Virus record (IMG/VR): IMGVR_UViG_3300003885_000021
Coordinates: 1-35,522 of that record
DNA length: 35,522 nucleotides
Source of the DNA: a virus
Reading direction: 5' to 3' (one strand)
Shown: piece after piece, positions 12,870 through 30,139 of the stretch
Layout of the letters: each line of letters starts with the position of its first letter
Numbering within the stretch: position 1 is the stretch's first letter
The notes under the pieces: generated by a model
What the model was told of the DNA's origin: nothing
What the model saw: only the letters and a program-made list of their open reading frames with translations
The model's database searches: none
Program-made: the position numbers and the translations under genes

Positions 12870-14144
12870 ATGGCACAATATGTAGGTAATTACCAAGAAT
12901 ATTTAAACGCCGGGGGGAAAGCGTCGTCTGCGGCATATTACAAAGCTAATCCAAGCGCCCCGGGGGCGGCTAAGCCTACGGGGAATACAAGACCCAATTC
13001 ACCCGCTGCAAGAACCAATTCACCTGCGGCAGGAAAAGTGTTTTTGGGCGCTCAAGCAGGGTATATAGACGCTAATACAACTTTTAGTAATGGGTCTGTT
13101 ACGATGACTGCGGCGCAGTTGGCGAACAGAAACCCGGAAGGCCGGAACGGCTTGACTTTTGACAAGGCGCCTAACGGGGAAGTTCAAGCTTACGACTCTT
13201 ACGGGGATGAATCTTGGAGTCTATATTCAGCAGCCCCTAGAAAAAGAGCTTCTCCGTCGAGAAGCGTTGCCGCACCCCAGCGGTCAAGCAGCGGCGGTGG
13301 CGGTGGTGGTGGTGGCGGTAGTAGCACACCAAGCAACTACGGGTTAGATGGTAAAGTCAGCCGCATCGACACCGAGGCGCTTAAACTCCCACCTTGGCAA
13401 AACGTAAACGTTCCTTGGGATCCTGCTTATCTTGCGACGTACAAGGAGTGGGCTAAATCGGGTTTTATAAACCGCGAGGTAAATCCTAACGATCTAGTTC
13501 AGCAGCGTCTTGATGAGTTATTGAACAAACAAGGGAAGTATATTTCTGCAGCTCGTCAGCGCGGCGTTGAACAAGCTGCTTCCAGAGGGCTGCTTAACTC
13601 TTCAATAGCTGCTGGATCAGCGGAGCGTGCAGCGATTGAAGCTGCTTTGCCGATCGCTAAGCAAGACGCCAGCACTTATTTTTCTCAGGGCATAAATAAT
13701 CAGAACCTTGCTAATCAATTTTCATTAGCACGTCAAAACGCAGGCATGACGGGTATGATGGAGATGGACAAGTTAAAAGAAACGCTTGAGGCTGAATTTG
13801 CTAGGTTCAACGGGGAAATGGACGTAAAAGTTGATTCCTTTAACGCAACTATGTCTTTTGAAGAGGCGATGGATGCGCGTGAAAAGGCCCAGCAGGAATT
13901 CCTTACTCGCGCTGAGGCATGGAGTGCGCTGGAGCGTGCGCGAATAAGCGCTAATACTTCTATTTCTGTTGCCGATATTCAGGCGGCGTCACAGGCAGAT
14001 TCAGTGTACAAAAAAGGACTGCTCGATATCTGGGGAAACCCGGATATAACTCCGCAGCAGTCCGGGGTTTTTACTGATCAATGGCGAATAACTAATAACT
14101 ATGCCACCAACTCTGCAGTTAGATGGGATCAGGCGTATAGATAA
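12870..14144 (+). CDS. Putative internal virion protein
   Basis: A 424-residue protein. The N-terminus is YVGNYQEYLNAGGKASSAAYY. A Pro/Ala/Asn-rich region and a run of ten consecutive glycines (residues about 146-155, encoded by GGT and GGC repeats) follow. The C-terminal 230 residues are long helices (QRGVEQAASRGLLNSSIAAGSA, KLKETLEAEFARFNGEM). This composition matches helical ejection proteins of podoviruses. It is first in the run of genes leading to the giant virion protein. No enzyme motif is seen. The stop overlaps the next start (TAATG). Confidence 0.6.
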   Translation: MAQYVGNYQEYLNAGGKASSAAYYKANPSAPGAAKPTGNTRPNSPAARTNSPAAGKVFLGAQAGYIDANTTFSNGSVTMTAAQLANRNPEGRNGLTFDKAPNGEVQAYDSYGDESWSLYSAAPRKRASPSRSVAAPQRSSSGGGGGGGGGSSTPSNYGLDGKVSRIDTEALKLPPWQNVNVPWDPAYLATYKEWAKSGFINREVNPNDLVQQRLDELLNKQGKYISAARQRGVEQAASRGLLNSSIAAGSAERAAIEAALPIAKQDASTYFSQGINNQNLANQFSLARQNAGMTGMMEMDKLKETLEAEFARFNGEMDVKVDSFNATMSFEEAMDAREKAQQEFLTRAEAWSALERARISANTSISVADIQAASQADSVYKKGLLDIWGNPDITPQQSGVFTDQWRITNNYATNSAVRWDQAYR

Positions 14145-14626
14145 TGGAAATTAAAGAAGCCACCGGTAAAGACCTGAAAAAAATTGTCAAGCTTCTTGAA
14201 GGGGCGCACGTGGAGTTTGGACACGCTTCGGTGCCTTTCGACTCTGACACTGTTCGTAACATGATTCAGCGGGTAATAACCCACCAGAACCACATCGCTT
14301 TTATTCTCGTAGACGGGAAGCAAATACGCGGAATACTTGCGGGGCTAAATAACCAACTGTGGTACAGCAGAAAAAGACAGGTTACAGATCTTATCTTTTA
14401 TGTGGAAACAGGAACACGGGGTTATGGTGCAAGATTATTGTCTGTTTTTCTTGGGTGGGCGCGTAAAGTGCCCAACATAGGAGAAATTTCTATGGGCATA
14501 ACAAGCGGGGCTAAGAATATTGATCGTATTGGTGCATTGTTTGAAGCCGTCGGAATGTCAAAAGTAGGGGGCACATACTCAATGTACCCGCGAGAAGAAA
14601 AAGAGGATGAGACATGGGTAGCATAG
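14144..14626 (+). CDS. GNAT-family N-acetyltransferase
   Basis: A 160-residue protein with GNAT layout. There is an N-terminal IKEATGKDLKKIVKLLEGAH helix start, a central strand VTDLIFYVETGTRGYGARLL in which TGTRGYGARLL plays the acetyl-CoA binding Q/RxxGxG/A loop, and a late IDRIGALFEAVGMSKVGGTYSM segment typical of the GNAT end. The substrate is unknown. GNAT genes embedded among podovirus internal-protein genes are recurrent. It may modify a virion protein or a host target. It overlaps genes at both ends (1 base upstream, 13 downstream). Confidence 0.8.
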   Translation: MEIKEATGKDLKKIVKLLEGAHVEFGHASVPFDSDTVRNMIQRVITHQNHIAFILVDGKQIRGILAGLNNQLWYSRKRQVTDLIFYVETGTRGYGARLLSVFLGWARKVPNIGEISMGITSGAKNIDRIGALFEAVGMSKVGGTYSMYPREEKEDETWVA

Positions 14627-15708
14627 TTAAAAGCATAGGCAAAGCTGTTAAAAGCGTTGTTAAAGGCGTCATTAAATTTGTAAAAAAATACTGGAAAGCT
14701 ATAGTTATTACCGCGCTTGTAGTCGCCGCTGTTGTGTTTACCCTTGGTGCTGGCGCCCCAGCTGCAGCCGCCGTTGCTGGCGGAGAAGCCGGGGCAGTTA
14801 CGGGTGCCGGAGCTGGAGCTGGGCTACTTGGCCCGTCTATAGGCGCCGAGGGGGCCACAGCGGCAGCAAGCGGGGCCATCGCGGGGGGTTCTACCGTTAG
14901 CGCCGTACAGGGAACGTTAGCGGCCCCTGAGTTAGCTGCAGTTGCACCTATTGCCACAGAAACGGCTGCCGCCCCCGTTGCCGGAGCTGCGACTGAAGCG
15001 GGCGCACCGATGTTTACACAGGCTGCTGCGAACGCAACCGCACCTTTGACAGGTAGCACTACCGCAGATGCGCTGGTATCCGCACAGGCCACTACAGAGA
15101 GTCTCGTGGGCACGACAAGTGCAACCTCTGTGCAGCAAACATCGACACAAGCACTTATAAGCAACGCGCAAGCACCTTTAAGTGACATAACAAAAGCAAA
15201 CTTTTATGCAAACGCTGACGGTTTAGAGCTAAAAAGCTTAAGCGAATACTTAGCTACGAACCCCGTCCCAAAAACCCCGGTGAATGTAATAGCCAATGCG
15301 GGACAAAAGGTAGTCGAGGGGGCAAAAACCGTAGGTAGAGGAGCAATGAATTTTGCTGATAAGCATCCTTTGTTAGCGGGAATAGGTTTGCAGGCCGTTG
15401 GCGGAATGTTAAAACGCCCTGAGGGTCAGCCAGAGCGGCAAGTTGCTCTTCAGGCAGGCATGGCGTCTCCTGAGGGTAGAGTTTGGAACGGCAGCGGGTT
15501 AATTGACTATAAAGACAGCGCCATTGCTTCGCAGGGTTTTAAACAGCGTGCGGGGGTTGCACCTATTAGCGTAACAGCTACCCCACAAGCCGAACTTCCT
15601 GCGCCTAGCGGGTTACTTAACCCTCCCACTCCGGCTAAGATTACCGTAGCTAATGAACAGCTGGTAAATCAGGGGCTGCTAAGCAACGTTCGGATAACAG
15701 GTACATAA
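14614..15708 (+). CDS. Putative internal virion/ejection protein with membrane segment
   Basis: A 364-residue protein. The first 27 residues are a basic amphipathic helix with repeated KSIGKAVKSVVKGVIKFVKK spacing. A strong hydrophobic segment follows (AIVITALVVAAVVFTLGAGA, residues about 29-48). Residues 50-200 are Ala/Gly/Thr low complexity. The C-terminal part has NFADKHPLLAGIGLQAVGGML and a Pro-rich tail. A membrane-active head with a low-complexity body fits a protein ejected into the host envelope. Function is inferred from composition and position. Confidence 0.6.
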   Translation: MGSIVKSIGKAVKSVVKGVIKFVKKYWKAIVITALVVAAVVFTLGAGAPAAAAVAGGEAGAVTGAGAGAGLLGPSIGAEGATAAASGAIAGGSTVSAVQGTLAAPELAAVAPIATETAAAPVAGAATEAGAPMFTQAAANATAPLTGSTTADALVSAQATTESLVGTTSATSVQQTSTQALISNAQAPLSDITKANFYANADGLELKSLSEYLATNPVPKTPVNVIANAGQKVVEGAKTVGRGAMNFADKHPLLAGIGLQAVGGMLKRPEGQPERQVALQAGMASPEGRVWNGSGLIDYKDSAIASQGFKQRAGVAPISVTATPQAELPAPSGLLNPPTPAKITVANEQLVNQGLLSNVRITGT

Positions 15709-15710
15709 TT

Positions 15711-16517
15711 ATGGGTAAATTTGTCAACGGGCTATTGACCGAATCAAGCGTTAATAAGATGGCTGAGGCAATGCAGGTTGCACCAAGGAAAGATCCTCGT
15801 GAGGTAGTTGATAAGCCTACCGGTGCAGCGGAAACAAGCAATCAACTCGCTCCGGGGGCGCCAGCTCCGACGCAAAACCCTCAAGCGGGTCAGCAGCAAA
15901 ATTTGCAGGCGGACGCTGAAACGAACATCGTGCGTAAGAACTTACCTCCGCCCGAACAAAAAGTTCTTTCAGATACCCCAGAAGACGCTCCGACAGATAC
16001 TGGGGAAAACACAGCCTTGCCTCAGCCCACCGCAGAAGAAGAAAAACAGGCACGTATTCTTATGGCTAATGTCGTTGATTTTCTCTACGGCGAAGGCCTG
16101 CAACAGACAACTAAAACGCTTAAGCAGAAAGATCAGCCAGTTCCTGAGGCTATTGGGCAAATTGCTTCTCAGCTCGTCACTACACAACTGGATGCGGCTG
16201 AAGTTGCTAACCAGACTGTTTCACCCAACATCTTGATGGCGGTAGGCGCCGAAGTTGTTTCTCAAATTTATGAATTGGCAGAGTCTCTTGGAGTGTGGCA
16301 ACCCGGAACGGAAGAGCGGGCAAGTAAGGATATGAATTTATCTCTCAACTATGCAACGAACTTGTTTGTTCAGACACAGCAAAGCACCGGGAGACAAGAT
16401 CGGATCGCAGGAATGCAGGACGTTGCAAAAGCAGCGCAAATCGGGGAGTATGAATCTCAGCCGGGTAGTCAATTCACCAACGATATGGCGCCTGTGCCCG
16501 AAGGAGGTTTGCTATAA
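15711..16517 (+). CDS. Putative virion protein, acidic
   Basis: A 268-residue acidic, Gln/Pro-rich protein. Residues about 30-115 look disordered (ATETNIVRKNLPPPEQKV-like stretches). Residues 120-235 are helical (LMANVVDFLYGEGLQQTTKT, LMAVGAEVVSQIYELAESLG). No family was recognised. It is tightly packed between two other putative ejection proteins and starts at MGKFVNGLL two bases after the upstream stop. No good Shine-Dalgarno is visible, so coupling to the upstream gene is likely. Confidence 0.6.
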   Translation: MGKFVNGLLTESSVNKMAEAMQVAPRKDPREVVDKPTGAAETSNQLAPGAPAPTQNPQAGQQQNLQADAETNIVRKNLPPPEQKVLSDTPEDAPTDTGENTALPQPTAEEEKQARILMANVVDFLYGEGLQQTTKTLKQKDQPVPEAIGQIASQLVTTQLDAAEVANQTVSPNILMAVGAEVVSQIYELAESLGVWQPGTEERASKDMNLSLNYATNLFVQTQQSTGRQDRIAGMQDVAKAAQIGEYESQPGSQFTNDMAPVPEGGLL

Positions 16518-17150
16518 ATGGGTGACAGAGTAGACGGTTTTGTGGAAGGGCTTAGTCAAGGGTTAATCGACACAGGCAAGTATCTTGTGCGAGATTCTTT
16601 TGAAGCGCGTGCCTACGGCCGCAAAAAAGAAGTTGAGCAGCGTTTCTGGGAAGAGCGTAACGCAATCACTTACCCTCAGCAGCAAGCTCTGAAAGAAACA
16701 GAGATTACGGCCAGAAAACAAACAGCTAAAACTGTAGCCGATGCCCGAATTAAAGCAGCGGATAAGAAAGCACAGGCCACAATCAAGGCAGCGGATAAAC
16801 TTGCTAACAGTAAGCTTACGCTGGAGGATAAAAAGGCAAAGAACAAAGCAGCCGTAGAAGATAAAAAAATACTGAACCCCGTCATGTTTGAATCTGCGCT
16901 TTCTGACACTGAAAGTACGCTTAAAGCTCTGAACAAACGATACAACGTAGTTCGACCGGGCGGCTTGGATCCGTATGAAGAAGACGCAACGCTATTGAAG
17001 AAGCAAATTGCGGCTGTTAAGATACGCCGTGACGCATTGATGAAGATAAAACGCTTAAAAGAAGCGGGTAAAACAGAAGAAGTAGATAAGTTTATTGGCG
17101 ATTTTCTCTATAAGTACGGGGGGAAACCCGAAGACGCAACACCTAAATAA
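16518..17150 (+). CDS. Coiled-coil virion-associated protein
   Basis: A 210-residue Lys/Ala/Glu-rich protein. It has a helical core with heptad-like KAADKKAQATIKAADKLANS (residues about 76-95) and EDKKAKNKAAVEDKK. The C-terminus (LKEAGKTEEVDKFIGDFLYK) is also helical. AGGAGG lies 10 bases before the ATG, the best ribosome site in this cluster. It directly precedes the giant protein gene and is probably co-packaged or co-assembled with it. No enzyme motif was seen. Confidence 0.6.
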   Translation: MGDRVDGFVEGLSQGLIDTGKYLVRDSFEARAYGRKKEVEQRFWEERNAITYPQQQALKETEITARKQTAKTVADARIKAADKKAQATIKAADKLANSKLTLEDKKAKNKAAVEDKKILNPVMFESALSDTESTLKALNKRYNVVRPGGLDPYEEDATLLKKQIAAVKIRRDALMKIKRLKEAGKTEEVDKFIGDFLYKYGGKPEDATPK

Positions 17151-17170: not shown

Positions 17171-20100
17171 ATGGCACATGATCAGGGTTTTCCTTCTCTT
17201 GAAGACATCATGGCTGTGGAATTTCCAGAAGATCCGGTTATTGCTTCTGAAGCTGAGCCTATCAGCCCGCCTGAACCTACCTCACCCCCAGCCGATACAA
17301 ATTTCCAAAGTGCCTTTCCTTCTCTTGAAGACATCATGGCCGTGGAGTTTCCAGAAGATTCTACAAGCCTTGACCCATCTTCACCGGACAAAGAAGCAGT
17401 TTATTTACAAGACACTTACCCTTCAAAGCCTTGGAGGGGAACACCCAGCACCGAACTCCCGATCGACACTACCCCGGATACTTTTCTGGGAGCTATCGCA
17501 AAAGGCGCGGAAAACTTATCTGCAGTATTTAAAAACCAAGCAGGTGGAGCGCTTCAGTATATAAGTGAGGCTAAACCCTCACTTGCAGGACTGCCCGGCT
17601 ATGATCTAACTGAAAATGCAGCAGCGCTTATAAACTCAATCGCTAAAAATTTCAAAGTAGAAGATCTCGGGGAAAAAGGAAAAAAGTTATCTGCTGAAGC
17701 TAAAGATGAGCTGAAGAAAAATGCTTTGATAGCTGAGCAGGGATCGCTTCCATATTACGGTTATAGTGGAGTCATCGCCGGAGGGTTAATGATCCCTACT
17801 TTAATCGCAACTTACCTCACTAAATCACCTGTCCCTTTAGTTTTTATGGGAGGACAAGTTGCCGCTGGCAGGTACGCTGAATCTATAGCAAAAGGACGAA
17901 CTCACGAAGAAGCTTCGTTAGATGGCATGGTCTATGGAACGTCAGAGTTTGTTGGTCAAATACTACCGTTTGGCGTTTTTTTGAAAGAGGGCGGTAAATT
18001 TGTATGGCGAGCTGTTAAAGGGGGCGTGTACGAAAGCGGCGAAGAGGTTGTCAATGAACTTATACAGCTGGCCTATGACTGGGGTGTGCTGAAAGAAGAC
18101 ATGACCGCCGCGCAAGTTAAACAGCGCCTAAAAGACGCTGCGATACTGGGTGGTGGTTTAGGCTTAGCGATTACCGGGGCTTTTACACCTTTAGCGAGAT
18201 CAAAAGAAAAACCACCTCCTCCTCCCGACGGGGAAGAAAATTTGTCTGGGCTTTTTAAAGGGTTTAACGCCGGGGCATATAACAGAAACAACAATAATGT
18301 TCCCCCTAATGCTCCTCCTCCCGCTGGCGGCGGTGAAAGCATTGGCGACCTGCAACAGCAGTTGACAGATCTCGAAGCTGAAGTTTCCGGGGAACCGGTT
18401 GCGCCTGCAGCGTCTTTTCAAGGTGATTTTTTCAACATACCAGATACTGTTCCACTGGACACGGGGTTAAAAAACCAGCCGAATGAAGTTATTCCGGGTA
18501 AAGAAGATATTGCTACTAACCAAAACCAAGGAGATTTGTTTGATGAGACAACCACAACTCCCGCCGAAGTTCCCCCTAAGGTTCCGGCCAAGCCAGATAT
18601 TCCCCCAGAAGCTCCGCCCGCAGGTTCAGCAGAAATCTCACCTGCACTACCCGCTGAAGTTCCCTCTACGGTTCCGGCCAAGCCAGAAGCTCCCACCGTT
18701 GAAGGGGAGATAAAAACAGCGGTAGAAACTATGTCCGGGGCTGAGTTGACTAAAGAGCTTAAAGCTCTTGGCGTAGAAAAAATACCACATCGCATAGCAA
18801 GCCGCAGAGAAGTTCTTCAGCTCGAAAGAGATAGAACGCCCGAGCTTACACCTGAAGCCGTTGAGTTAGCTGCCAATGAAGCGGCTACCAGCCCGGAAAA
18901 CAACTTACCTCTTCCTTCCGATGATCAGAAAGAAGCCGGCAACTATAAGAAAGGGCGGTTGTCTGTTAATGGCCTCGATATCGCTATTGAAAACCCAGCT
19001 GGATCTAAACGTCAACCCGAATGGCCCGCGCTTAAAGACCATTACGGCGATATTAAGCAAACGATAGGAACGGAAGGCAACGTTGGCGAAGGTGTTGACG
19101 TGTTTGTTAATTCAAACTCCAACGCTGACATAGAAGGTAACAACGTTTTTGTGGTAGACCAGTACGATAAAGACGGTACTTTTGATGAGCACAAGGTTGT
19201 GTTTGGTGCGGAAAACGCGAAACAAGCAAAAGCGATATACAACCGAAACTATGAAAAAGGCTGGGATCAGGGGAAAGCTGTAACTGAGTATACGTGGGAT
19301 GAGTTTAAAGCTTGGTTGCCCAAGAACAAAAATGTACCCGCAGCACCCCCAATTATGCCCACCGCAAAGGTTAAAAAAGCCCCGCCTATTGTTCCAGAAA
19401 AGGCTGAACTTACTGTGCCTCGCGCTAAAACAGTAACCGCCGAGCTAATCCCCTCAACGTCTGTTGATCAACTACCTTGGATACATCAAGCGCCTTTTAA
19501 GACCAAACAGAAATATAGCCGTGCAGCCGCTAAGATCATTCAAAACGAAAAAGGCGAAGATCTAATTTTACAGAAAATAGGCGCACCCGCAGATAAAGTT
19601 AAAGAATCCACGGGAACCTTTGAAGGCGCTGTTAATCCCAACGTACTTGTAGATATTCGCGACAAAGAAACAGCGGATTTATACTCTAATATCTTTGGGC
19701 TTATATACTCACAGGATGCAGTGCCGTGGCACGCTGCAAAAAGTGAAGCTAAAGGTAAAAACATAAGCAGAGGAAAAGCTATACGTTTCGATAAACCTCT
19801 TACGCAAAGTTTAATAGAAACGTTCTATAACCATCTCGACACCGCACTTCCCGGCGGAGAGTTTACCGTCGTGGGTGAAGAAATACGGGTAATAAACTTT
19901 CGGGATGAAAATGGTAAACCTCTCAGTGGGGTGGACACAACTTTCTTAAAAGCTGTCGATAAAGCCGTTGACACTTTCAAATATAAGGGTAAAATTAGCG
20001 TTGGTGAATTTGGTGCAGAAAGTAACTATTTAAGCAACAACTGGGGAGAACAAAAAAATGGCGAAGCGTATAGATCTAGGATTACTGCCGCCGGACGATC

Positions 20101-23100
20101 CGATTTATTCGACTGGATACGTTATCGGAGGACGAAAGTTGGGGCGCTCCAAAAACGATTCAGCAATGAAGAACGCCGTAAAACAGGTGGGCAAAGAAGC
20201 CGACCAAGCACTGTCCGGCAGCAAAGACCAGAAGTAGACTCTAAAGGTAAAATCTCTCTCACCCATTGGTCTGACGCCTCTGAGCTGATCACGCTTGACC
20301 CCAAGTACAGTGGCACCGGTATAAAAGGTGCTGAGTCCAAGCGTAAAGCAAATGACCCCAAGAATTTTATAGCCCGCACCTACTACGGGTTAAAAGGCTA
20401 CGCTAAAGAAACGGGTCTCGGCAGCAATACCTACGAAACAAGTATCGACCCCAAAGAACTCTACGATTTTGCGCAGGATCCTGACACTTTAGCAGTTCGC
20501 TACCCACTGGGGGGCGTCGATTTAACCCGGTATGAAAAAGCTATCGCTGATGCGGGGTATACCGGATATTTTGTTAATCAGGAGGACGTTCGAGTTGCTG
20601 CGATATTCAAGTCTTTAGACGTGGCGCCTGTCACGGTTAAAAAACAACGTACCCCCCTCTGGAAATCTGCACTTCTCGAACAGGTAACAGCTCTTGGGCA
20701 GTCCAGCGCCCCGGCGGCTCAGTGGAAAGCTTCAATTCAAAAACTACAGCAGAAAGGAGTAAAGCAGGAGGAAATTCAGTGGTCTGGCGTTATGGAGTGG
20801 TTAGATACCCAAAAAGGTAAAGTCACCGAAGAGGCAATGCTGAATTATCTTGCAGTTAATCAGGTTGAATTGAGTGAAAAAATATTAGCTGGCCCCGGTG
20901 GCCCCGGGTTTGAGGGTAGAACAGAACGTATGGACGCACTTATCACACGAGAAAACGCCGGAGATATTACAAAAGAAGAAACTATTGAATTAGATATTTT
21001 AGAACAAGAAGTGGCCCGGGGGGAAGAAGGCCACGATGAAACGCAATACTCTGAATATCAAATGCCCGGCGCAAAAGAAAACTACACTGAACTCGTTATT
21101 ACTGCCCCTTTGCAAGAAGGTGAGACCTATAGCTCTTCACACTGGGAAAATATTGATAATGCTGTTGTACATCTCCGTTTTAACGAGCGCACAATAGAAG
21201 GAAAGCGCACGCTGTTTATTGAAGAAATACAGAGTGATTTGCACCAATTGGGAAGAAAGTATGGCTATCAGTCTGGGCTGAAAAAACCTCAAGCGTTTTC
21301 TCCTAAAACTTGGCAGGATATGAAAAGCGCAGCACGTAAGGTTGCTCGTAAATACGATGGGTTTGGTTTTGATAGCTCATTGCACGCGCTTCATGCTTTT
21401 GTTACTGCAAATAGAGACAGTTCAAACAATATTGGATATCCGTGGTTTAAAACTTGGGACACCAGTGATTTATCGCAGGAAGAAATTGCAACTATTCAGC
21501 TTTATGTAGAGAACAAAGTTGAAACAGATGAGTATAACGAGCGTCGCCTTAACACCCTTCCTGATGCCCCTTTTAAAGAGTCCCGCGTCTGGGGAATGGT
21601 TGGGGTGAAACGCGCAATACGCTGGGCGATAGATAATAATATTGAGCAGATAGCTTGGACACCGGGCGAAGTTCAGTCGGACAGATATGATTTATCTAAG
21701 CACATTTCTGCAATACGCTATCTTCCTTATCGGCCCCCATATACAGACAAAACAGAATATGAAATAAGTGTAACTGATGTCGAAGGGCATGGACTAATCA
21801 GTTTTACGAGATCATACAACCTAAAACAGGTAGAAGATACGTTCGGAAAAGACATCGCTGAAAAGATCCAAAACGGTGAAGGGGTGATAGAAATAGAAGA
21901 AATATACCGCGCAAGAACGCTGAAAGGTGTCGATCTCAAAGTAGGCGGCGAAGGCATGAAAGGCTTTTATGACAAGATCTTACCTTCTGCGGTAAACAAG
22001 TTTATTAAAAAGTTTGGGGCCAAGGTTGGAGTGGCACAGATAGAGGCGAAAGATGTCTGGACTTTCCCAATAACTGAAAAGATGAAAGATACCGTCGGCA
22101 GCGGCGTTGCTATGTTTCAGCAAGCATCTAAAACGCTGACAAACGGCGTTACTCAAAAGTACATCGATGAGCTTCAAGCTGAAGTTGATCAGCTGAACTT
22201 TAAAATGCCTGTGAAGGTGATCGCCAGTAGAAAAGATCTTTCGTGGGGAGATATGCTTAGTGAAGATGGCGCCACAGATACTACAGCAGTATGGGCGGAA
22301 TTTGCCGACGGCTCTTCCAGAATATACGTTTTTGCTGATAAAACGAGAAACGCAGAAACAGCTATTGTGTCCGCAATACATGAAGCTGTAGGCCACGCAG
22401 GCTTACGCTCTTTATTTACAGGAGAAAAGGGTTTAGATCAAAAGGCTTTTGATGATTTTCTTGATGCTGTATACAAAGATCAGGCAAAACGTATTGCAAA
22501 AACAAACAGCTATCGAGAGCTTAGATATGACCTCAGTGATACTACTCAACGGCGTGAAGCTACAGAAGAATTTTTTGCTTATACTGCTCAAAACTTAGTA
22601 GGCAAAAAAGGCGTTCGCGTTCCTGACTGGTTAACCAAGCTGTTCATAAAGTTAAAACAAATATTGCGCAAATTGCACATACCCAATATAAACCTGTGGG
22701 GGAGAGCTGAACTGCTGGATTTAATATCTCGGGCTAATCACGCTGCGCGTAGAACCGAAACGGTACGAGACCGAACAGGCGAGCCTGTTACTGTCAGACA
22801 GAGCAATTTAAACCCGGATAACCCCACTGTACGACATCAGCGCCAACAGCGCGAGGATACCTTTTCAGCGGAAAACATTAGAGACAGAGTAAAAACTCGC
22901 GTCGATATTATTCGCCTCTATTTGCAGGATAAAAGTATAGAAATAAAACGAAAACAAAAGTCCTACGAGGTTGCTGTGCCTGAATCACAAGATGCTTATC
23001 AGGCCATTTCTATTTACGACAGTGTTGCCGGGGAAAGGTTAAACACTTTTGACGAAGAGCGTATTCAAGTTTTACTTGAACAGATTGCTGTTTCAAATCT

Positions 23101-25489
23101 TGACATAACAGACGTGGGTGAGTGGTTAGTAGCCCGACACGCTTCAGAAGCAAACGCGTATCTTTATGAAATAAACCCCGATATGGGTATCGACCCTGCC
23201 AGAGAAAAACTCTCAGGCATGAGCAACAAAGAAGCAAAAGCTATCCTCGATAAATACGCGGATAATCGCGCTTTGCAAATAGTGGGCGACACCGTAGACC
23301 TGATAAACAAAGAAAGCCTGCGACAAATGGTGCAGGATCAACTTTTAGCTCAGTTTATGGCGGATAACTGGGCAGGACGCTATCAACACTATGTCCCTCT
23401 CATGCGAGAAGAGGCTGAATCTTTCTCTGATTCTCTCCCCGGACGGGGTGAAGGTTTTAGCCTCAAAGGGCGCGAGAGTAAACAGCGTACAGGTTCAGCT
23501 TACTGGACACCAACTAACATAGTATCGAACGTACTTACGCAGGCGCAGTTGCGCATAACGCGGGGTGAAAAAAATAAAGTGAGTTTAGCGTTACTGGAAC
23601 AGGTAGAAGCCCATCCCGATCCGGCTTTCTGGAAAGTAGTGATAGACCCAACGCACCGAGGCGTCGTGCAGCGTAAAACAAAAGAAGGGATTGTACGCGA
23701 AGTAAAAGATATCCCAGATTTTCAGTTAAAACCAAACCAGTTAAGCGTAAAGCGTAAAGGTGAACAAGTAATTGTTGAATTTACCCGGGGCAATCCTCGC
23801 GCTGAACGCATGATTAAGGGTTTAAAAAACTTAGACGCCCCTGACTTTGGGCCAGTTATTCGCACAATGTCGAGCGCCACTCGTTTTTTAGCGCAGGTAT
23901 ACACCGCTTGGAACCCAGAATTTGCTGTTACTAACTTTATCCGTGACATACAAACCGCCGGGTACAACCTCACAAGCACCGAACTTAAAAACACAAAAAT
24001 CAAAGTGTTGACCTCTGTTCCTGCCGCAATGATGGGCATAATTCAGGGTATGCGAGGCAACATCACGGCTCCTTGGGCTAAAGTGTGGAATGAATTTCTT
24101 GAGGCAGGAGGTAAAACTGGCTGGATAGATTTGCATCAAGACGTAAAAGTGTATGAAAAAAACCTACAACGTATCGTAAACAGGCTCAAAGCGGGAAAAC
24201 CCCCAAAACAACTTATTCGTCGGTTTTTTGACGGTATTTCAAACGCCAATACCGTTGTGGAAAATGGAGTACGTCTTTCTGCATATAAAGCCGCGAGAGA
24301 CATAGGTATGTCTCCTGCAGCTTCTGCTGCATTGGCAAAAGATCTTACAGTAAATTTTAATCGCAAAGGTTTGTTCGGGCCTGCTATGAATGCGTGGTAT
24401 GTATTCTTTAATGCCAACGTTCAAGGCCAATTTCGTATGATCGAAACCATGGCGACTTCAAAAATGGGGCGCCGAGCAGCTTACGCTACGATATTGTTTG
24501 CTTTTATGCTGGATATGGCTAACCGACTTATGGCGGGCGAAGATGACGACGGACAAAATTTGTATGATGCTCTTCCTGATTACATAAAAGCCCGTAATGT
24601 TATTTTCTGGGGGTTCGGTGGAAGAAAAGAACCGCTTATAAAATTCGCAGCGCCTTGGGGCTATAACGTTTTTCATTTAATTGGACAGGCCATGGGGGCA
24701 GCAACTACCCGTCAAGATTTTAATATTCAAAACGAAATGGCTAAACTTTTCTTCGGAATTATTGAGGCTTTCAACCCCGTAGGCTCCGGGGATTTACTGC
24801 AGTTAATTTCCCCGACGGTATTAGATCCTGCGATACAAATTGGAACTAACAAGGACTGGGCTGGAAGACCTGTCAAGCCTGAAGTGTTCCCCTCCAATAC
24901 ACCTAAACCTTTTTCTCAGCAGTATTTTAGAACTGCAACTGAAACGAGTAAAGATATAGCCCGAAAGTTAAATGAAGTTGAAATACGCGCCTTGGGCATA
25001 GAAGGTGGAACGACAATCACTCCCGGCACCCTTGACTTTTCACCCGAATGGTTTGATTTACTGTTTGAGTTCTCTACTGGCGGAACAGGTAAACTTGTTA
25101 GTAATACTTTAAACGTTGCACGCTTGGCGCTTAAAGAGAAAAAAATCCCTGTTTCTACCATACCTTTTGTACGAAAAGTTACCGGGTATGATAGTCAGTA
25201 TGGCGTTAAATCCCGGTACTATGAATGGTCAAGAGAAATTGGCTATACAAAACTTGAACTTAATGCCCTTAAAGGAAAAGCGCGTAGCAAATTACGGGAT
25301 ACGCCCAAAGGCTCTGTGGTGAGTAAGTTTAGCAGTACCGAAAAGAGTTTGCGTAAACTGCGGAACCAACGCAAAAAAGCGGTTGGACGAGAAGATCAAA
25401 AACGCGTTGGAATTATTGACGAAAGAATCCGGCGCCTCATGGTCGGCTTTAATATCGAGTACCGTGAAAAAGTGCTTGGGTTTAAATAG
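17171..25489 (+). CDS. Giant polyvalent virion protein (2772 residues)
   Basis: A multidomain protein probably packaged and ejected into the host. Domain order by eye: duplicated FPSLEDIMAVEFPED motifs at residues 7 and 49; a hydrophobic region at about 195-285; Pro/Glu linkers; an inorganic pyrophosphatase-like polyvalent domain at about 593-718 (GEGVDVFVN, FDEHKVVFG); an ADP-ribosyltransferase-like domain at about 1026-1156 (ISLTHWS, AGYTGYFV); a large conserved domain at about 1295-1620 (FIEEIQSDLHQLGRKYGY, EGMKGFYDKILPS); a metallopeptidase with HEAVGH at 1737-1742 and a possible third ligand near Glu1796-1800; and an LPD38-like region at about 2230-2515. Such polyvalent proteins are proposed to neutralise host defences. 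AGGAG precedes the ATG. It is the last plus-strand gene. Confidence 0.85.
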   Translation: MAHDQGFPSLEDIMAVEFPEDPVIASEAEPISPPEPTSPPADTNFQSAFPSLEDIMAVEFPEDSTSLDPSSPDKEAVYLQDTYPSKPWRGTPSTELPIDTTPDTFLGAIAKGAENLSAVFKNQAGGALQYISEAKPSLAGLPGYDLTENAAALINSIAKNFKVEDLGEKGKKLSAEAKDELKKNALIAEQGSLPYYGYSGVIAGGLMIPTLIATYLTKSPVPLVFMGGQVAAGRYAESIAKGRTHEEASLDGMVYGTSEFVGQILPFGVFLKEGGKFVWRAVKGGVYESGEEVVNELIQLAYDWGVLKEDMTAAQVKQRLKDAAILGGGLGLAITGAFTPLARSKEKPPPPPDGEENLSGLFKGFNAGAYNRNNNNVPPNAPPPAGGGESIGDLQQQLTDLEAEVSGEPVAPAASFQGDFFNIPDTVPLDTGLKNQPNEVIPGKEDIATNQNQGDLFDETTTTPAEVPPKVPAKPDIPPEAPPAGSAEISPALPAEVPSTVPAKPEAPTVEGEIKTAVETMSGAELTKELKALGVEKIPHRIASRREVLQLERDRTPELTPEAVELAANEAATSPENNLPLPSDDQKEAGNYKKGRLSVNGLDIAIENPAGSKRQPEWPALKDHYGDIKQTIGTEGNVGEGVDVFVNSNSNADIEGNNVFVVDQYDKDGTFDEHKVVFGAENAKQAKAIYNRNYEKGWDQGKAVTEYTWDEFKAWLPKNKNVPAAPPIMPTAKVKKAPPIVPEKAELTVPRAKTVTAELIPSTSVDQLPWIHQAPFKTKQKYSRAAAKIIQNEKGEDLILQKIGAPADKVKESTGTFEGAVNPNVLVDIRDKETADLYSNIFGLIYSQDAVPWHAAKSEAKGKNISRGKAIRFDKPLTQSLIETFYNHLDTALPGGEFTVVGEEIRVINFRDENGKPLSGVDTTFLKAVDKAVDTFKYKGKISVGEFGAESNYLSNNWGEQKNGEAYRSRITAAGRSDLFDWIRYRRTKVGALQKRFSNEERRKTGGQRSRPSTVRQQRPEVDSKGKISLTHWSDASELITLDPKYSGTGIKGAESKRKANDPKNFIARTYYGLKGYAKETGLGSNTYETSIDPKELYDFAQDPDTLAVRYPLGGVDLTRYEKAIADAGYTGYFVNQEDVRVAAIFKSLDVAPVTVKKQRTPLWKSALLEQVTALGQSSAPAAQWKASIQKLQQKGVKQEEIQWSGVMEWLDTQKGKVTEEAMLNYLAVNQVELSEKILAGPGGPGFEGRTERMDALITRENAGDITKEETIELDILEQEVARGEEGHDETQYSEYQMPGAKENYTELVITAPLQEGETYSSSHWENIDNAVVHLRFNERTIEGKRTLFIEEIQSDLHQLGRKYGYQSGLKKPQAFSPKTWQDMKSAARKVARKYDGFGFDSSLHALHAFVTANRDSSNNIGYPWFKTWDTSDLSQEEIATIQLYVENKVETDEYNERRLNTLPDAPFKESRVWGMVGVKRAIRWAIDNNIEQIAWTPGEVQSDRYDLSKHISAIRYLPYRPPYTDKTEYEISVTDVEGHGLISFTRSYNLKQVEDTFGKDIAEKIQNGEGVIEIEEIYRARTLKGVDLKVGGEGMKGFYDKILPSAVNKFIKKFGAKVGVAQIEAKDVWTFPITEKMKDTVGSGVAMFQQASKTLTNGVTQKYIDELQAEVDQLNFKMPVKVIASRKDLSWGDMLSEDGATDTTAVWAEFADGSSRIYVFADKTRNAETAIVSAIHEAVGHAGLRSLFTGEKGLDQKAFDDFLDAVYKDQAKRIAKTNSYRELRYDLSDTTQRREATEEFFAYTAQNLVGKKGVRVPDWLTKLFIKLKQILRKLHIPNINLWGRAELLDLISRANHAARRTETVRDRTGEPVTVRQSNLNPDNPTVRHQRQQREDTFSAENIRDRVKTRVDIIRLYLQDKSIEIKRKQKSYEVAVPESQDAYQAISIYDSVAGERLNTFDEERIQVLLEQIAVSNLDITDVGEWLVARHASEANAYLYEINPDMGIDPAREKLSGMSNKEAKAILDKYADNRALQIVGDTVDLINKESLRQMVQDQLLAQFMADNWAGRYQHYVPLMREEAESFSDSLPGRGEGFSLKGRESKQRTGSAYWTPTNIVSNVLTQAQLRITRGEKNKVSLALLEQVEAHPDPAFWKVVIDPTHRGVVQRKTKEGIVREVKDIPDFQLKPNQLSVKRKGEQVIVEFTRGNPRAERMIKGLKNLDAPDFGPVIRTMSSATRFLAQVYTAWNPEFAVTNFIRDIQTAGYNLTSTELKNTKIKVLTSVPAAMMGIIQGMRGNITAPWAKVWNEFLEAGGKTGWIDLHQDVKVYEKNLQRIVNRLKAGKPPKQLIRRFFDGISNANTVVENGVRLSAYKAARDIGMSPAASAALAKDLTVNFNRKGLFGPAMNAWYVFFNANVQGQFRMIETMATSKMGRRAAYATILFAFMLDMANRLMAGEDDDGQNLYDALPDYIKARNVIFWGFGGRKEPLIKFAAPWGYNVFHLIGQAMGAATTRQDFNIQNEMAKLFFGIIEAFNPVGSGDLLQLISPTVLDPAIQIGTNKDWAGRPVKPEVFPSNTPKPFSQQYFRTATETSKDIARKLNEVEIRALGIEGGTTITPGTLDFSPEWFDLLFEFSTGGTGKLVSNTLNVARLALKEKKIPVSTIPFVRKVTGYDSQYGVKSRYYEWSREIGYTKLELNALKGKARSKLRDTPKGSVVSKFSSTEKSLRKLRNQRKKAVGREDQKRVGIIDERIRRLMVGFNIEYREKVLGFK
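20058..20237 (+). CDS. Possible overprinted ORF in the giant protein gene
   Basis: A 59-codon ORF in the +1 frame relative to the giant gene, starting MAKRIDLGLLPPDDPIYSTG and ending LSGSKDQK. GGGGAG lies nine bases upstream of its ATG. Its codons are of ordinary use, with many G-first codons. Over the same stretch the main frame becomes Arg-rich and uses AGA, AGG, CGA and CGG, unlike its neighbours. It could be a real internal gene, or the trace of two compensating frameshifts. The main frame continues without stop, so expression is unproven. Confidence 0.35.
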   Translation: MAKRIDLGLLPPDDPIYSTGYVIGGRKLGRSKNDSAMKNAVKQVGKEADQALSGSKDQK

Positions 25490-25518: not shown

Positions 25519-27450
25519 TCATTTTTTTATATACCTCTTTGTAATAAACCCTTTAGCGTCCAAAGGCAGCCCTTTTATCCAGTCTGGAACTGTTGTCATA
25601 CAGCGGGTTAATTTTTTTAACTCGTGTTCGACTTTTGTTTTGGGTACAGAAGCTACTAGTTCATCGTGAACTCTCAATATAACTTTGCCCCCCTGTTGTC
25701 CGTATAGTTTTGCACCATAAAAGAAAATATCTCGTGCAATTGCCTGCGTAATATTTTCCACAATTTTTCCGCCAAAACTTTCAGTGCGAACCCACTTATG
25801 GGTATAGCTATCTAGCCCCATGTACGAAAAACCGCCGCTGTCATATTCCGGTTTGTAGTATGCGAGTCTGCGACCAGAGGGAAGAAGTATAAAAAGAAAA
25901 TCTTTCTCAACTGTGAAAGTGACATGATGAACGCGTTTTGCTTTACCGGGATCTTGAATAACCAATCTCACGGCTTTATCACACGCATACCAGTACCTGA
26001 CAATAGGTTTATTTTTTGCTCTCCAAGCCCTGACCAGAGGTAGACCTTCTGAATCGCTGAACTGTGCAGCCCCGTATTGGGTCGCCATGGTATTTAAAGC
26101 ACCGATCGCCCCTTGATACCCCATCGACAACTCTAATATTTTTCCCTTGAAGCGCTCTGCATCTGTTACCCGGTCATAGGGTATCCCTAAAACATCTTCT
26201 GCAGCGACTTTGTACATGTCCCTGCCTGCGGCAATTTGCTCTAGCTTCTTTTGAAAATCACACTGCCACGGCAATACTCGACCTTCAATGCCTGTTAGGT
26301 CTACGACGCTCAGTATTTCCCCTTTAGGCGCGGTAATCGCACACCGAATGATGCTGGATAGAACTTCCATAACATCACCGTAAACTAAATCTATCGCTTC
26401 TCTTCCGTAGTTTTTTAACAGATTTGCGGCTGAAACAGCATCTTCCAGCATCCCACGGGGCAAATTCCCCGGCTGAAACAGCCTGTGTGCGTCTCTGCCG
26501 GTACGTGCGGCTCCGAGGTACTGGTGAGTATACCGAATACGCCCATCGTGGCATACAGCGCGATCTAGGGTGTTCCATTTAGAAGTTGATGTCTTCGATA
26601 ACTGCTGATTGAGACGCAATATCTTTCGAGCGTCTTCGGATAGCTTAGTGTTCGTCAGCGCTAGTGCTACGGTGGCTTTTTGCATGTTGGCTAAGTGGAG
26701 ACCTTGAGTATCTCGTAACCAGACTTTTACCTGTGCTTTAGAGTTTGGGTTATCTAGCCCCGAAACCTCTTGCATACGCGATATAAGACACGCTTTTTCT
26801 TCTTCGACAGCGATAAGGGCTTTCTCTACCAGTGTCATGTCTATGGGTAAACCCCGGTGATTAATTTCCTGATCCATTGCCCATTCACTCCATTTAACGC
26901 TAGAAGAATACGCACTAATTTTTTCGTGAAGCGGTACCAATACCTCTGTATCGGTTAAGCCGTAGTGGATAAATTTAGCCCAGTCTTCCGGGGCGTTGTG
27001 TCTGTCCCAGTGTCTTATTATCCTGTTTTTTGGCTGGGGCATACAGAATTTGCGGATAAGGCGCGAACCCTCCCGTTCTTTTCGGTAAGGAATTTCAAAA
27101 CGCTCCAGCACTTGATCCAACGACCCTTGAAACCCTAAAGACAGGGCCATGACCATTAAACAGCGCCAGCGTTTCAAGGGTATGCGTATACCGAGATTTT
27201 CCAAGGCTGCGCGATCAAAAGACGCATTGAATGCAAAAAACAGTGTTTCAGAAGAACTTGCCGCTTTAGCTAAATCACTGGGAATTTTAGAGTTAAATGT
27301 TACATCCCAGACTTGAGTTTCAACTATAGAATTTAGTTGGTAAGTAACTATTATCGTTTGTGTAGAGCTGTGCTCAAAATATTTTGCTGCCCCTACAAGC
27401 TTGAGAGGCGCTTTTGATTTAACTTCGGTATCTATATAGCATTTTTGCAT
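25519..27450 (-). CDS. DNA polymerase, family A, with 3'-5' exonuclease
   Basis: A 643-residue phage replicative polymerase. The exonuclease domain has Exo I IDTE (Asp7, Glu9), Exo II FNASFD (about 74-79) and Exo III YGLTDTE (about 165-175). The polymerase domain has motif A VVDLTGIEGRVLPW with catalytic Asp near 385, motif B KILELSMGYQGAIG near 435, and motif C RVHDELV near 597. These are the expected residues for an active enzyme. The gene ends 30 bases from the convergent giant protein gene. The start ATG has no good ribosome site of its own; a 36-codon ORF stops three bases upstream, so coupled translation is possible. Confidence 0.95.
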   Translation of the reverse strand: MQKCYIDTEVKSKAPLKLVGAAKYFEHSSTQTIIVTYQLNSIVETQVWDVTFNSKIPSDLAKAASSSETLFFAFNASFDRAALENLGIRIPLKRWRCLMVMALSLGFQGSLDQVLERFEIPYRKEREGSRLIRKFCMPQPKNRIIRHWDRHNAPEDWAKFIHYGLTDTEVLVPLHEKISAYSSSVKWSEWAMDQEINHRGLPIDMTLVEKALIAVEEEKACLISRMQEVSGLDNPNSKAQVKVWLRDTQGLHLANMQKATVALALTNTKLSEDARKILRLNQQLSKTSTSKWNTLDRAVCHDGRIRYTHQYLGAARTGRDAHRLFQPGNLPRGMLEDAVSAANLLKNYGREAIDLVYGDVMEVLSSIIRCAITAPKGEILSVVDLTGIEGRVLPWQCDFQKKLEQIAAGRDMYKVAAEDVLGIPYDRVTDAERFKGKILELSMGYQGAIGALNTMATQYGAAQFSDSEGLPLVRAWRAKNKPIVRYWYACDKAVRLVIQDPGKAKRVHHVTFTVEKDFLFILLPSGRRLAYYKPEYDSGGFSYMGLDSYTHKWVRTESFGGKIVENITQAIARDIFFYGAKLYGQQGGKVILRVHDELVASVPKTKVEHELKKLTRCMTTVPDWIKGLPLDAKGFITKRYIKK

Positions 27451-27453
27451 TTT

Positions 27454-27564
27454 CTAATCCAAAAAGTGGCATACTTTTACGCACCTCGGTATGCCAGCGA
27501 GGCTTTGTGAACTAGCGCCGAAAAGGGAGGACAAAACAGCGCTATTTCGCGTTATTAGTAGCAT
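27454..27564 (-). CDS. Possible 36-codon leader ORF before the polymerase
   Basis: The ORF starts MLLITRNSALLSSLF and ends VKVCHFLD. GAGGTG lies nine bases before the ATG, inside the loop of a conserved hairpin whose 3' arm contains the ATG itself. The TAG stop is followed by three bases and then the polymerase ATG, a spacing suited to translational coupling. The ORF lies wholly within the duplicated structured element, so its peptide sequence may simply be a by-product of RNA structure. Confidence 0.35.
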   Translation of the reverse strand: MLLITRNSAVLSSLFGASSQSLAGIPRCVKVCHFLD

Positions 27565-27636
27565 ACTTTTACGCACCTCGGTATGCCAGCGAAGCTTTGG
27601 GAAACAGTACCGGGCCGGCACTGCTTCGCGTTATTA
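27468..27636 (-). ncRNA. Tandem structured RNA element, two copies
   Basis: Two copies lie between the DUF2815 and polymerase genes: unit 1 at 27561-27636, unit 2 at 27468-27557 (minus-strand order). Both begin TAATAACGCGAA and share a 32-base block (27469-27500 and 27561-27592, plus coordinates, period 92). Each has a first stem (unit 1 CAGTGCC with GGTACTG; unit 2 TAGCGCTG with CGGCGCTA) and a second stem, TGGCATAC with GTATGCCA or GTATGCTA, around the loop CGAGGTGCGTAAAA. Base changes between units keep both stems paired. Three wobble pairs are G-U on the minus strand but A-C on the plus strand. Unit 2 ends in CTTTTT and could also act as an attenuator. Confidence 0.6.
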
Positions 27637-28212
27637 CATCAAGCCGTCATCATCGCCTTCATCGGCAAAATCGTCTTCGTAAGGAACGTCCGCAAAATCG
27701 TCTTCAGCAGTAGTTCTGCCGTCAAAGGCGTCGTCGTCTTTAACCTTCATTACGTTACTCAAAGAAAAACTAACGCCGATTCCGCCTGTTGGGTGTTTCC
27801 ACGGATAAAGCGTAATACTGGCGCGGTAATGCGCTCCTGCATACAGTTCTTTCGCCTCCATGATAGCCTTTAACTGGGTATTGACTACCGCCGGTTGTTG
27901 GCTAGATCTGGCCTGCAAAATATAAGCATTTTCCCACTGCTCGATAACTTCATTATCTCCGTCTTTGATTGGGTTTGTCCACTTGTACTTTTTGATCTTT
28001 GGGTCGCCAAACTTTTCAACCAACAGCTTGTGTATCTCAGCCCTCATCTGTCGCACAAAAGCCATGTGCGCTTTATCGTCCTTCATCATGACAACAGTTA
28101 TAGAGTATTTCTCCTCTGGGTTTTCCCCGGGAAGCGAAGGTGGCGCGTGGGGTTCGTTTAAATACACAAAAGACCCACGAAAAACAGGTGTTACAAATTT
28201 TTCTTTTTCCAT
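27634..28212 (-). CDS. DUF2815 family, ssDNA-binding-like protein
   Basis: A 192-residue protein. The N-terminal half matches the DUF2815 style: VTPVFRGSFVYLNEPHAPP, EEKYSITVVMMKDD, and later LYAGAHYRASITLYPW, consistent with an OB-like fold. The last 30 residues are very acidic (DDFADVPYEDDFADEGDDDG), like the interaction tails of bacterial SSB and T7 gp2.5. It probably coats single-stranded DNA for the polymerase and primase-helicase. GAGGA lies nine bases before the ATG. Its stop codon TAA is the first triplet of structured element unit 1. Confidence 0.8.
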   Translation of the reverse strand: MEKEKFVTPVFRGSFVYLNEPHAPPSLPGENPEEKYSITVVMMKDDKAHMAFVRQMRAEIHKLLVEKFGDPKIKKYKWTNPIKDGDNEVIEQWENAYILQARSSQQPAVVNTQLKAIMEAKELYAGAHYRASITLYPWKHPTGGIGVSFSLSNVMKVKDDDAFDGRTTAEDDFADVPYEDDFADEGDDDGLM

Positions 28213-28235
28213 GATTAAATCCTCTTTCAGTTAAG

Positions 28236-28301
28236 TTAAGTTAAGTTAAATACGGCGGGGTTAAAACACAACAAGTCTACATAAAAATTTTCTTTGTTCA
28301 T
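28236..28301 (-). CDS. Possible 21-residue ORF between DUF2800 and DUF2815 genes
   Basis: The ORF is MNKENFYVDLLCFNPAVFNL plus one threonine. It has the strongest ribosome site in the early region (AGGAGGG, six bases before the ATG), which overlaps the TAG stop of the DUF2800 gene. It ends within a short tandem run of the pentamer TTAAG (28230-28248). It may be a small protein or a coupling ORF for the following gene. Confidence 0.45.
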   Translation of the reverse strand: MNKENFYVDLLCFNPAVFNLT

Positions 28302-28312
28302 ATTAAGCCCTC

Positions 28313-29482
28313 CTATACTACGCCTTTAAAATCCTCTGCCGCAGAATTGATAGTTGCTCTTTTATCATCAACTTTAGCGATAGTGTATCTCTCTGGTTTT
28401 ACCCACAGCGCGAGTATTTTGTCCTCGGCTTCGGTGGCTTCTTCTATGCTCATGCTTTCAGTGTCTTTTATTACCTTTTTCACCATCGTTTCCATTTTGG
28501 CAGGACTTAGAAGTTTACCCGGAGAATATATTTTATTTCCGTAAATTTCTAAAAGCACTTTTGCCGCAATATCCTCGCTTTTCCATTTACGGTTAGTTCT
28601 GCCCGCAACAAGTTTCCATCCGGTTGGAGAGAAGCCGGCTTTGGCTCTTTCAAAGGCGCTGGCGCGAATATCTTTAATCCACAACTCCAGTGCAGGTAAT
28701 CTATTTAAAATCTCGCCTAAAAGCTTGGCGGTAAGTTCTGTTGGGCGATTTCCTTCTATCCCTTCAAAATCCATAGCAGCAGTTTCTAAGTTATGCTTAC
28801 GCAGTTCGGGGCAAACATGCGAGGCTTTACAGTAAAGACAGTGGGTGCCCGCAACCAGTGGGGGCTTTTCTGATATTGCGAAATTCGCAGCCGGGATTAA
28901 AAAATCGTTCGTCCACTCCCAAAGCTCAGTAGTGGAAATAACCTCGCAATCAAAGTTATCGATGCGGGGCTGACCAACATGCAACACAACCTCGTCCTGT
29001 CCTTCAGGGAAGCGTTCTAAGCTTAAAGCACCATAAATCCGAAATTGAATATTCTCGTGCGCAGATACTTCACGTCTCCCGTATTTATGATCTAATACAT
29101 GCAAGCTTCCAAGCGCCTCGTTGGCGACAACATCCGCAGTACCACCAGATTCGGGAATCAGTTTAGTTTTTAACTTCAATTCAACGTGCAGCTCGTGGAT
29201 AGCGGGCTGATAAAAGCTGTAAAAATAGTCCAGTTCCTGCTGCACGAGATCCAGCCGCTCCTGCGTCATAAGAAATGTGCGTTCCCCCGCTTTTATGGTC
29301 TGCCCCAGAAAAGAATCAACTGAGCGTTTAGTGCGAATGCAAGACTCAGTGACAGTGTGTAGCGCAGTGCCTTCGTCCGCCGCCTCACTGGACGTATCCG
29401 GGAACTGCGCTTCGTATTGCGGCGCACCCGCACAAACTGTCCAGCGGTGGCCGGCAGAGGGGGAGAGAAGTTTATGGCCCAC
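28313..29482 (-). CDS. DUF2800 protein, Cas4/RecB-like PD-(D/E)XK nuclease
   Basis: A 389-residue protein starting at GTG. Nuclease features in order are: AADEGTALHTVTESCIR (about residues 34-50); GGTADVVAN (about 113-121) with the first metal aspartate; HVLDHKYGRREV (about 127-138) with the D-x-K; QFRIYGAL (about 146-153), the QxxxY motif; and THCLYCKASHVCPEL (about 212-226), a cysteine cluster as in Cas4-type iron-sulphur nucleases. DUF2800 genes travel with DUF2815 and polymerase A genes in phages and probably act in recombination or end processing. The start lies four bases after the upstream stop and has a weak ribosome site. Confidence 0.8.
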   Translation of the reverse strand: MGHKLLSPSAGHRWTVCAGAPQYEAQFPDTSSEAADEGTALHTVTESCIRTKRSVDSFLGQTIKAGERTFLMTQERLDLVQQELDYFYSFYQPAIHELHVELKLKTKLIPESGGTADVVANEALGSLHVLDHKYGRREVSAHENIQFRIYGALSLERFPEGQDEVVLHVGQPRIDNFDCEVISTTELWEWTNDFLIPAANFAISEKPPLVAGTHCLYCKASHVCPELRKHNLETAAMDFEGIEGNRPTELTAKLLGEILNRLPALELWIKDIRASAFERAKAGFSPTGWKLVAGRTNRKWKSEDIAAKVLLEIYGNKIYSPGKLLSPAKMETMVKKVIKDTESMSIEEATEAEDKILALWVKPERYTIAKVDDKRATINSAAEDFKGVV

Positions 29483-29486
29483 GGCG

Positions 29487-30077: not shown

Positions 30078-30106
30078 GTTTAATTCCTCTAGGGGTGTAA
30101 ATGTCA

Positions 30107-30135
30107 ATAATAGGTTATTTGTAAGTTTTTTACAA
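30107..30135 (-). promoter_or_regulatory. Early leftward promoter with dyad at -35
   Basis: On the minus strand, TTGTAA (30130-30135) is followed after 17 bases by TATTAT (30107-30112), a good sigma70 match. It drives the 196-residue gene, nuclease, DUF2815 and polymerase genes. The -35 box lies in GTAA-N5-TTAC, the same dyad form as at the regulator promoter. Confidence 0.7.
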
Positions 30136-30139
30136 TACT

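Follow-up and report, generated by a model that had tools for sequence, protein, structure and literature searches.

Phage polyvalent proteins, as described by Iyer et al. (2017, PMC5512222), are giant multidomain proteins encoded next to virion genes, in which InPase, LPD38 and zincin peptidase domains occur; fusions of InPase domains to portal proteins were noted in that work, and packaging of these domains was proposed. The same authors described a class of zincins with an HExxxH motif and reported a relation between the zincin of phage N4 and those of the lethal-factor type. In gp50, the virion RNA polymerase (vRNAP) of N4 (Schitoviridae), an N-terminal domain is followed by the RNA polymerase, an HExxH zincin and a helical part (PMC12633501). 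DarB of phage P1 is a giant, injected antirestriction protein whose N-terminal residues direct packaging, the first 30 being sufficient to target the capsid (PMC9024508). A further giant protein, gp69 of the Burkholderia phage JC1, was detected in virions purified on CsCl, with 51 unique peptides and a score second to that of the major capsid protein (PMC9144972).

The DNA analysed here (the window) is a virus record of 35.5 kb, positions 1-35522, which carries a major head protein (phrog_1357) and tail and collar-fibre genes. Among the scanned proteins of the whole window (1-35522), neither a terminase nor a portal protein was recognised, and the record is therefore probably a partial genome. 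Its giant gene encodes the following parts:

17171..25489, + strand: polyvalent protein gene, 2772 residues, no internal stop.
17189..17233, + strand: N-terminal motif copy 1, FPSLEDIMAVEFPED, residues 7-21 (self-repeat score 81, reached by 0 of 200 shuffles).
17315..17359, + strand: N-terminal motif copy 2, FPSLEDIMAVEFPED, residues 49-63 (identical protein, two synonymous differences).
17651..18175, + strand: N2 segment, residues 161-335, a conserved N-terminal region (local profile, 23 loci; no Pfam match).
18923..19318, + strand: InPase domain, residues 585-716 (PF18823, E 1.8e-35; portal protein 9b41).
19448..20200, + strand: X770 domain, residues 760-1010 (profile, 4 loci).
20252..20578, + strand: 'HWS' domain, residues 1028-1136, read earlier as ART-like (conserved in 6 loci).
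20651..22123, + strand: H1165 and ExQSD domain, residues 1161-1651, predicted to be GNAT-like (profile, model, fold matches).
21224..21238, + strand: EIQSD motif, residues 1352-1356 (conserved across ExQSD loci).
22316..22642, + strand: zincin peptidase domain core, residues 1716-1824 (profile, motif conservation, hhalign, fold matches).
22379..22396, + strand: HEAVGH motif, residues 1737-1742, HExxxH type.
22883..25486, + strand: C-terminal chassis C1-C2-LPD38, residues 1905-2772 (profiles, confident model).
24557..25171, + strand: LPD38, residues 2463-2667 (PF18857, E 1.2e-32).

An earlier reading of the window from its sequence alone had proposed a frame of 2772 residues filling nearly a quarter of it; the coordinates are exact, and the stop-free frame takes up 23% of the window. 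That reading also described a multidomain polyvalent protein, of which the class, the InPase and LPD38 domains and the peptidase motif stand, while the ART-like domain is not supported. The protein joins several unrelated domains of disparate predicted activity (InPase, zincin, ExQSD) and is encoded among late and virion genes, as are the polyvalent proteins of Iyer et al. (2017). It differs from these in having the ExQSD domain (not in Pfam), a duplicated N-terminal motif and no demonstrable ART domain. The kind of protein is already known; what is notable is the duplicated motif, the zincin at the junction of two protein parts and the ExQSD domain.

The nearest relative with virion evidence is JC1 gp69, a DarB-like protein of the Bcep22 type (Burkholderia Lessievirus), which shares the C-terminal half and the place in the genome. 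Residues 1729-2689 of the window protein align with it (E 2.6e-53), and zincin, C1, C2 and LPD38 follow one another in both. The two proteins differ in front of this region: gp69 is 4515 residues long and carries other cargo, its CSP3 homologue being annotated as transglycosylase/helicase/methylase (PMC9144972), and neither InPase nor ExQSD was detected in gp69 with local profiles, whereas the window protein has both. In the window the giant gene is the last of the structural block and follows small virion proteins, as it does in JC1 and in the Vibrio phages D171 and 1.205.O. The genes upstream of it are:

12870..14144, + strand: 424-residue protein from the conserved block upstream (in 4 loci, homologues precede chassis giants by 2.6-3.7 kb).
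14144..14626, + strand: free-standing acetyltransferase gene of the upstream block (phrog_1249, E 4.6e-20; JC1 gp63 is the counterpart by position).
14614..15708, + strand: Ala/Gly-rich protein of the upstream block, 364 residues (position only).
15711..16517, + strand: small polar protein, 268 residues, a probable virion or ejection partner (homologues upstream of chassis giants).
16518..17150, + strand: small protein directly upstream of the giant gene, 210 residues (position only).

The order acetyltransferase, virion proteins, giant gene is common to the window and JC1. In metagenomic loci, homologues of the genes at 12870, 14144 and 15711 precede chassis giants at distances in line with expectation; for the 15711 gene these are 637-868 bp (6 loci), compared with 653 bp in the window. 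The earlier claim that the giant is a virion protein draws its support from homologues (JC1 gp69) and from this gene order.

The reading that we favour, with a rough probability of 0.6, is that the giant sits inside the virion of a short-tailed phage (podovirus), is ejected with the DNA and is built of a tag, swappable cargo, a junction zincin and a chassis. The N-terminal leader with its duplicated motif would act as a docking or packaging tag. The cargo (InPase, X770, HWS and the GNAT-like ExQSD) would act inside the host, and the zincin would part cargo from chassis, either in the head or after entry. The constant, helical, LPD38-ended chassis may anchor the protein in the virion or the ejection apparatus. 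The chassis is also found in a contig labelled as a siphovirus, which counts against this reading.

A single-sequence search of IMG/VR found no close relatives of the whole protein, so alignments of subregions were needed. The chassis, which is formed by the last ~860 residues, recurs in at least 273 viral loci, and in these proteins a median of 7 residues follows LPD38. The model of the chassis has a pLDDT of 83 (pTM 0.74 for the whole model), and the stretch after the zincin is modelled as mostly helical. Foldseek gave no match of the chassis in the PDB (E >= 1.7), which does not imply a novel fold; VIA returned common helical arrangements only, and the matches in a viral structure library are other polyvalent phage proteins. 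A candidate homology with C2 of N4 did not hold up as significant, P rising from 2e-4 with 7 sequences to 0.013 with 59.

While the chassis is constant, the cargo varies. LPD38 was present in all 16 of the diverse chassis proteins in which cargo was sampled, InPase, ART-PolyVal and LPD1 in six each and LPD5 in five, and eleven further cargo families occurred in one or two proteins each. The suggestion that the exact domain combination may be new is weakened by two viral contigs, L143 and L135, which have nearly the same set: N2, InPase, X770, H1165, ExQSD, zincin and chassis. L143 additionally contains a bona fide ART-PolyVal domain.

The pyrophosphatase-like and LPD38-like domains of the sequence-only reading are both borne out by Pfam, far above chance: the InPase match (PF18823) scores 122.2 bits with a gathering score of 26.8, and that of LPD38 (PF18857) 114 bits with a gathering score of 27. 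An InPase domain is also present at the C-terminus of a phage portal protein of solved structure (9b41). At the InPase site of the window protein the FDEHK and VDQ motifs are retained, while GEGVDVF and HYGDI stand where relatives have GDxVDVY and YGYI. These deviations, together with the constant chassis and the location in the structural block, would suit a packaged but purely structural protein, resembling T7 gp16 as a component of the ejection channel, with cargo that is inactive or serves the virion. We regard this as very unlikely: the metal ligands of the zincin are strictly conserved, as is the ExQSD motif set, and the swapping of cargo between relatives is easier to reconcile with a role inside the host than with a structural one.

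The region from about residue 1028 to 1136, which had been called ART-like, gave no Pfam match even at E <= 10, no PHROG match and no match in a PDB sequence search; profile-profile comparison with ART-PolyVal (PF18760) gave an insignificant P of 0.019 across 22 columns. The region, named HWS here, is consequently left unassigned. It is shared by a handful of phage giants through the motifs HWS/HFS, GTG, KGAE and PE-x-GxG; one His is conserved, and most of the region is modelled at pLDDT below 50. The core of X770 is modelled at pLDDT of about 75-85, and its VIA matches (Z 6-8) suggest a ferredoxin-like fold. A membrane role considered for N2 finds no support, since no 19-residue window exceeds 1.6 on the Kyte-Doolittle scale.

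The metallopeptidase proposed from the sequence is right in kind: the motif is intact, and both hhalign comparison with N4 and fold matches identify an HExxxH zincin. The HEAVGH motif differs from canonical HExxH by its additional residue; an acidic helix (EATEEFFAY) lies downstream, and HExx(x)H is kept in each of ~60 related sequences. The zincin region matches the zincin of N4 vRNAP, which forms the first part of the vRNAP C-terminal region, with an hhalign P of 4.4e-7, while ten shuffled and one reversed control gave P 0.1-0.9. The predicted structure resembles lethal-factor-type zincins (VIA Z 6-7, about 160-174 residues).

The position of this domain was compared across 30 non-redundant chassis proteins having a zincin, the window protein among them. 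The zincin lies no more than 350 residues upstream of the chassis in 27 of these, where uniform placement would give 7.5, and downstream of it in none (0/30); of 18 scored cargo domains, 17 precede the zincin in the chain. No earlier description of this junction rule was found in the literature. The architecture of N4 gp50 is alike, with an N-terminal part, enzyme cargo and a zincin that is immediately followed by a large, helical C-terminal part, and the two zincins are related by profile. It is unlike the window protein in its RNA polymerase cargo, its HExxH in place of HExxxH and its lack of a duplicated N-terminal motif; no polymerase match was found in the window protein with Pfam or PHROGs. 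The boundary position, with the same order in gp50, suggests that the zincin marks a release point between cargo and chassis.

The N4 vRNAP, however, is packaged unprocessed in spite of its related zincin (PMC5512222), and because of this, cleavage at the junction is something that we infer rather than observe. The N4 case also lends weight to an alternative in which the same ejected protein uses its zincin to attack host proteins after entry, its chassis-side position being inherited and not functional; zincins do serve as effectors in other conflict systems (PMC5512222). A free effector domain, however, would hardly need to stand at the boundary in 27 of 30 proteins whose cargo differs so widely, and we consider this alternative rather unlikely. 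Under the favoured reading, in which the zincin would separate cargo from chassis, it would be a release switch.

At the other end of the protein is a feature that the sequence-only reading had missed, a 15-residue motif duplicated at the very start. Other phages' chassis proteins begin with duplicated motifs of their own, among them RDLFAEV, LKEFTGxLD, LLSDxEVFG, LRPLDFDPFE, KPWERxW and SDDxFLxxAN. A significant N-terminal repeat (shuffle p<0.05) was found in 24 of 53 non-redundant chassis proteins and in 20 of 192 control ORFs, these being other ORFs of at least 300 residues from the same loci (Fisher 7.5e-8); these numbers are approximate and not wholly independent, since common ancestry explains a shared motif in some of the 53 and the start codons are predictions. 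Over half of the chassis proteins have no significant N-terminal duplication. Among ExQSD proteins without a recognised chassis, 14 of 51 carry such a repeat (shuffle p<0.05). Four ExQSD loci with shorter ORFs of 716-920 residues (L021, L037, L054 and L077) have duplicated N-terminal motifs too, such as DWGGVPISD and KLPPGAELV; these ORFs are possibly split parts of polyvalent proteins.

The two copies in the window are 96% identical in DNA, and the duplication may therefore be recent, while copies in other phages differ by 20-40% in DNA with the protein motif kept. Between the copies of 16 pairs, ~80 codons differ synonymously and 35 non-synonymously; since the pairs were chosen for protein similarity, these counts are not a measure of selection strength. 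The comparison of copies argues, for the most part, that many of the duplications are old and have been kept.

A duplicated N-terminal tag in chassis proteins was not found described in the literature. Whether the motif is a packaging tag is evenly balanced against two other roles, a docking peptide with two sites that binds a host factor or a further ejection protein, and a functionless, expanding disordered leader. A search for a motif-carrying partner in the same loci gave nothing significant (TSLRDVMEAQ in the scaffold, p 0.3). The N-termini of P1 DarB and N4 gp50 show no duplicated motif, and DarB, compared here by architecture only, also differs in its methylase/helicase cargo. The missing partner, the lack of a duplication in DarB and the possibly recent duplication in the window fit the other roles, while the divergent DNA behind a constant protein motif in other phages and the enrichment of repeats at chassis N-termini speak for a tag. 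If the leader is a packaging tag and the zincin a release switch, both rules would cover hundreds of phage proteins with varied cargo, and they offer testable handles on how phages package giant multi-enzyme proteins and then release parts of them in the host.

The ExQSD domain had likewise been overlooked. It is large and conserved, and is present in at least 521 viral loci in a motif-based scan of IMG/VR and in 120 loci in a motif-based scan of GTDB genome contigs; the labels of the latter span many bacterial and a few archaeal groups, mostly metagenome bins. Three of these loci (L264, L295 and L337) are in archaeal bins (Nitrosotalea, Nitrosopumilus and Thermoplasmata) and could be viruses of archaea or phage contigs that were binned wrongly. 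Of 93 aligned rows, not one matched a plausible Pfam family, and no description of the domain was found in the literature consulted; ExQSD may be one of the LPDs aligned in the Iyer 2017 supplement.

All or nearly all copies share H1324, R1336, E1352, Q1354, S1355, D1356, W1474, G1499 and Y1600. For the ExQSD and HxR motifs this invariance is partly selected, as both belonged to the search patterns; H1324, W1474, G1499, Y1600 and D1601 were outside the patterns. Where loci were retrieved by way of other regions of the protein, every copy that covers this part of the domain retains the ExQSD motif. The helical segment before the domain is also present in 96 of 99 viral copies, and no ExQSD domain was found in a complete ORF shorter than ~630 residues. 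In the Pelagibacter phage HTVC028P, the gene with the ExQSD domain has an annotated internal protein encoded on one side and an internal virion protein on the other.

AlphaFold models the ExQSD stretch with pLDDT above 90 over much of its length, and the fold matches are mostly to GNAT-fold proteins: the best by Foldseek is NatD (E 0.018, probability 0.96), and VIA gives Z 6-9, of which values of 7-8 may be background by the tool's own warning. Helices and strands follow one another in an order compatible with GNAT, strand 4 being followed by a long insertion. The Q/RxxGxG/A acetyl-CoA loop that follows strand 4 in GNAT proteins is absent; its position is taken by EIQSDLHQLGRKYG, with EIQSDxHQxG instead, and Q1359, G1361 and G1365 are conserved there. 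This is moderate evidence for a GNAT-like fold. Widespread in phages and missing from Pfam, ExQSD is of interest for its chemistry.

A broader proposal would make LPD38-chassis giants a general delivery format, in which a phage-specific duplicated N-terminal tag would direct the protein to its own virion and a zincin at a fixed junction would free whichever cargo is present, a frequent one, ExQSD, being a new family of GNAT-like enzymes with altered cofactor chemistry. We put this forward tentatively, as somewhat doubtful in its entirety.

Other features of the window were observed. On the opposite strand, 25519-33867 is a replication block encoding a family A DNA polymerase-like protein, a DUF2800/PD-(D/E)XK exonuclease, an SNF2 helicase and a DUF5906 primase-like protein. 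At 6252-7983, the gene of the major head protein appears to be interrupted by a group I intron (Rfam RF00028, 29.5 bits, E 3.4e-5, under the gathering score of 50). Exon 1 starts at 6252 and runs into a stop codon in frame at 6362, the ORF further downstream at 7180-7983 matches positions 73-337 of phrog_1357, and a homing-endonuclease-like ORF (6442-6972) lies inside the putative intron. The protein encoded at 9-1067 is built of repeat units (ATGIASTNLFGTPQLNLNLA and variants) and matches a minor-tail-protein PHROG.
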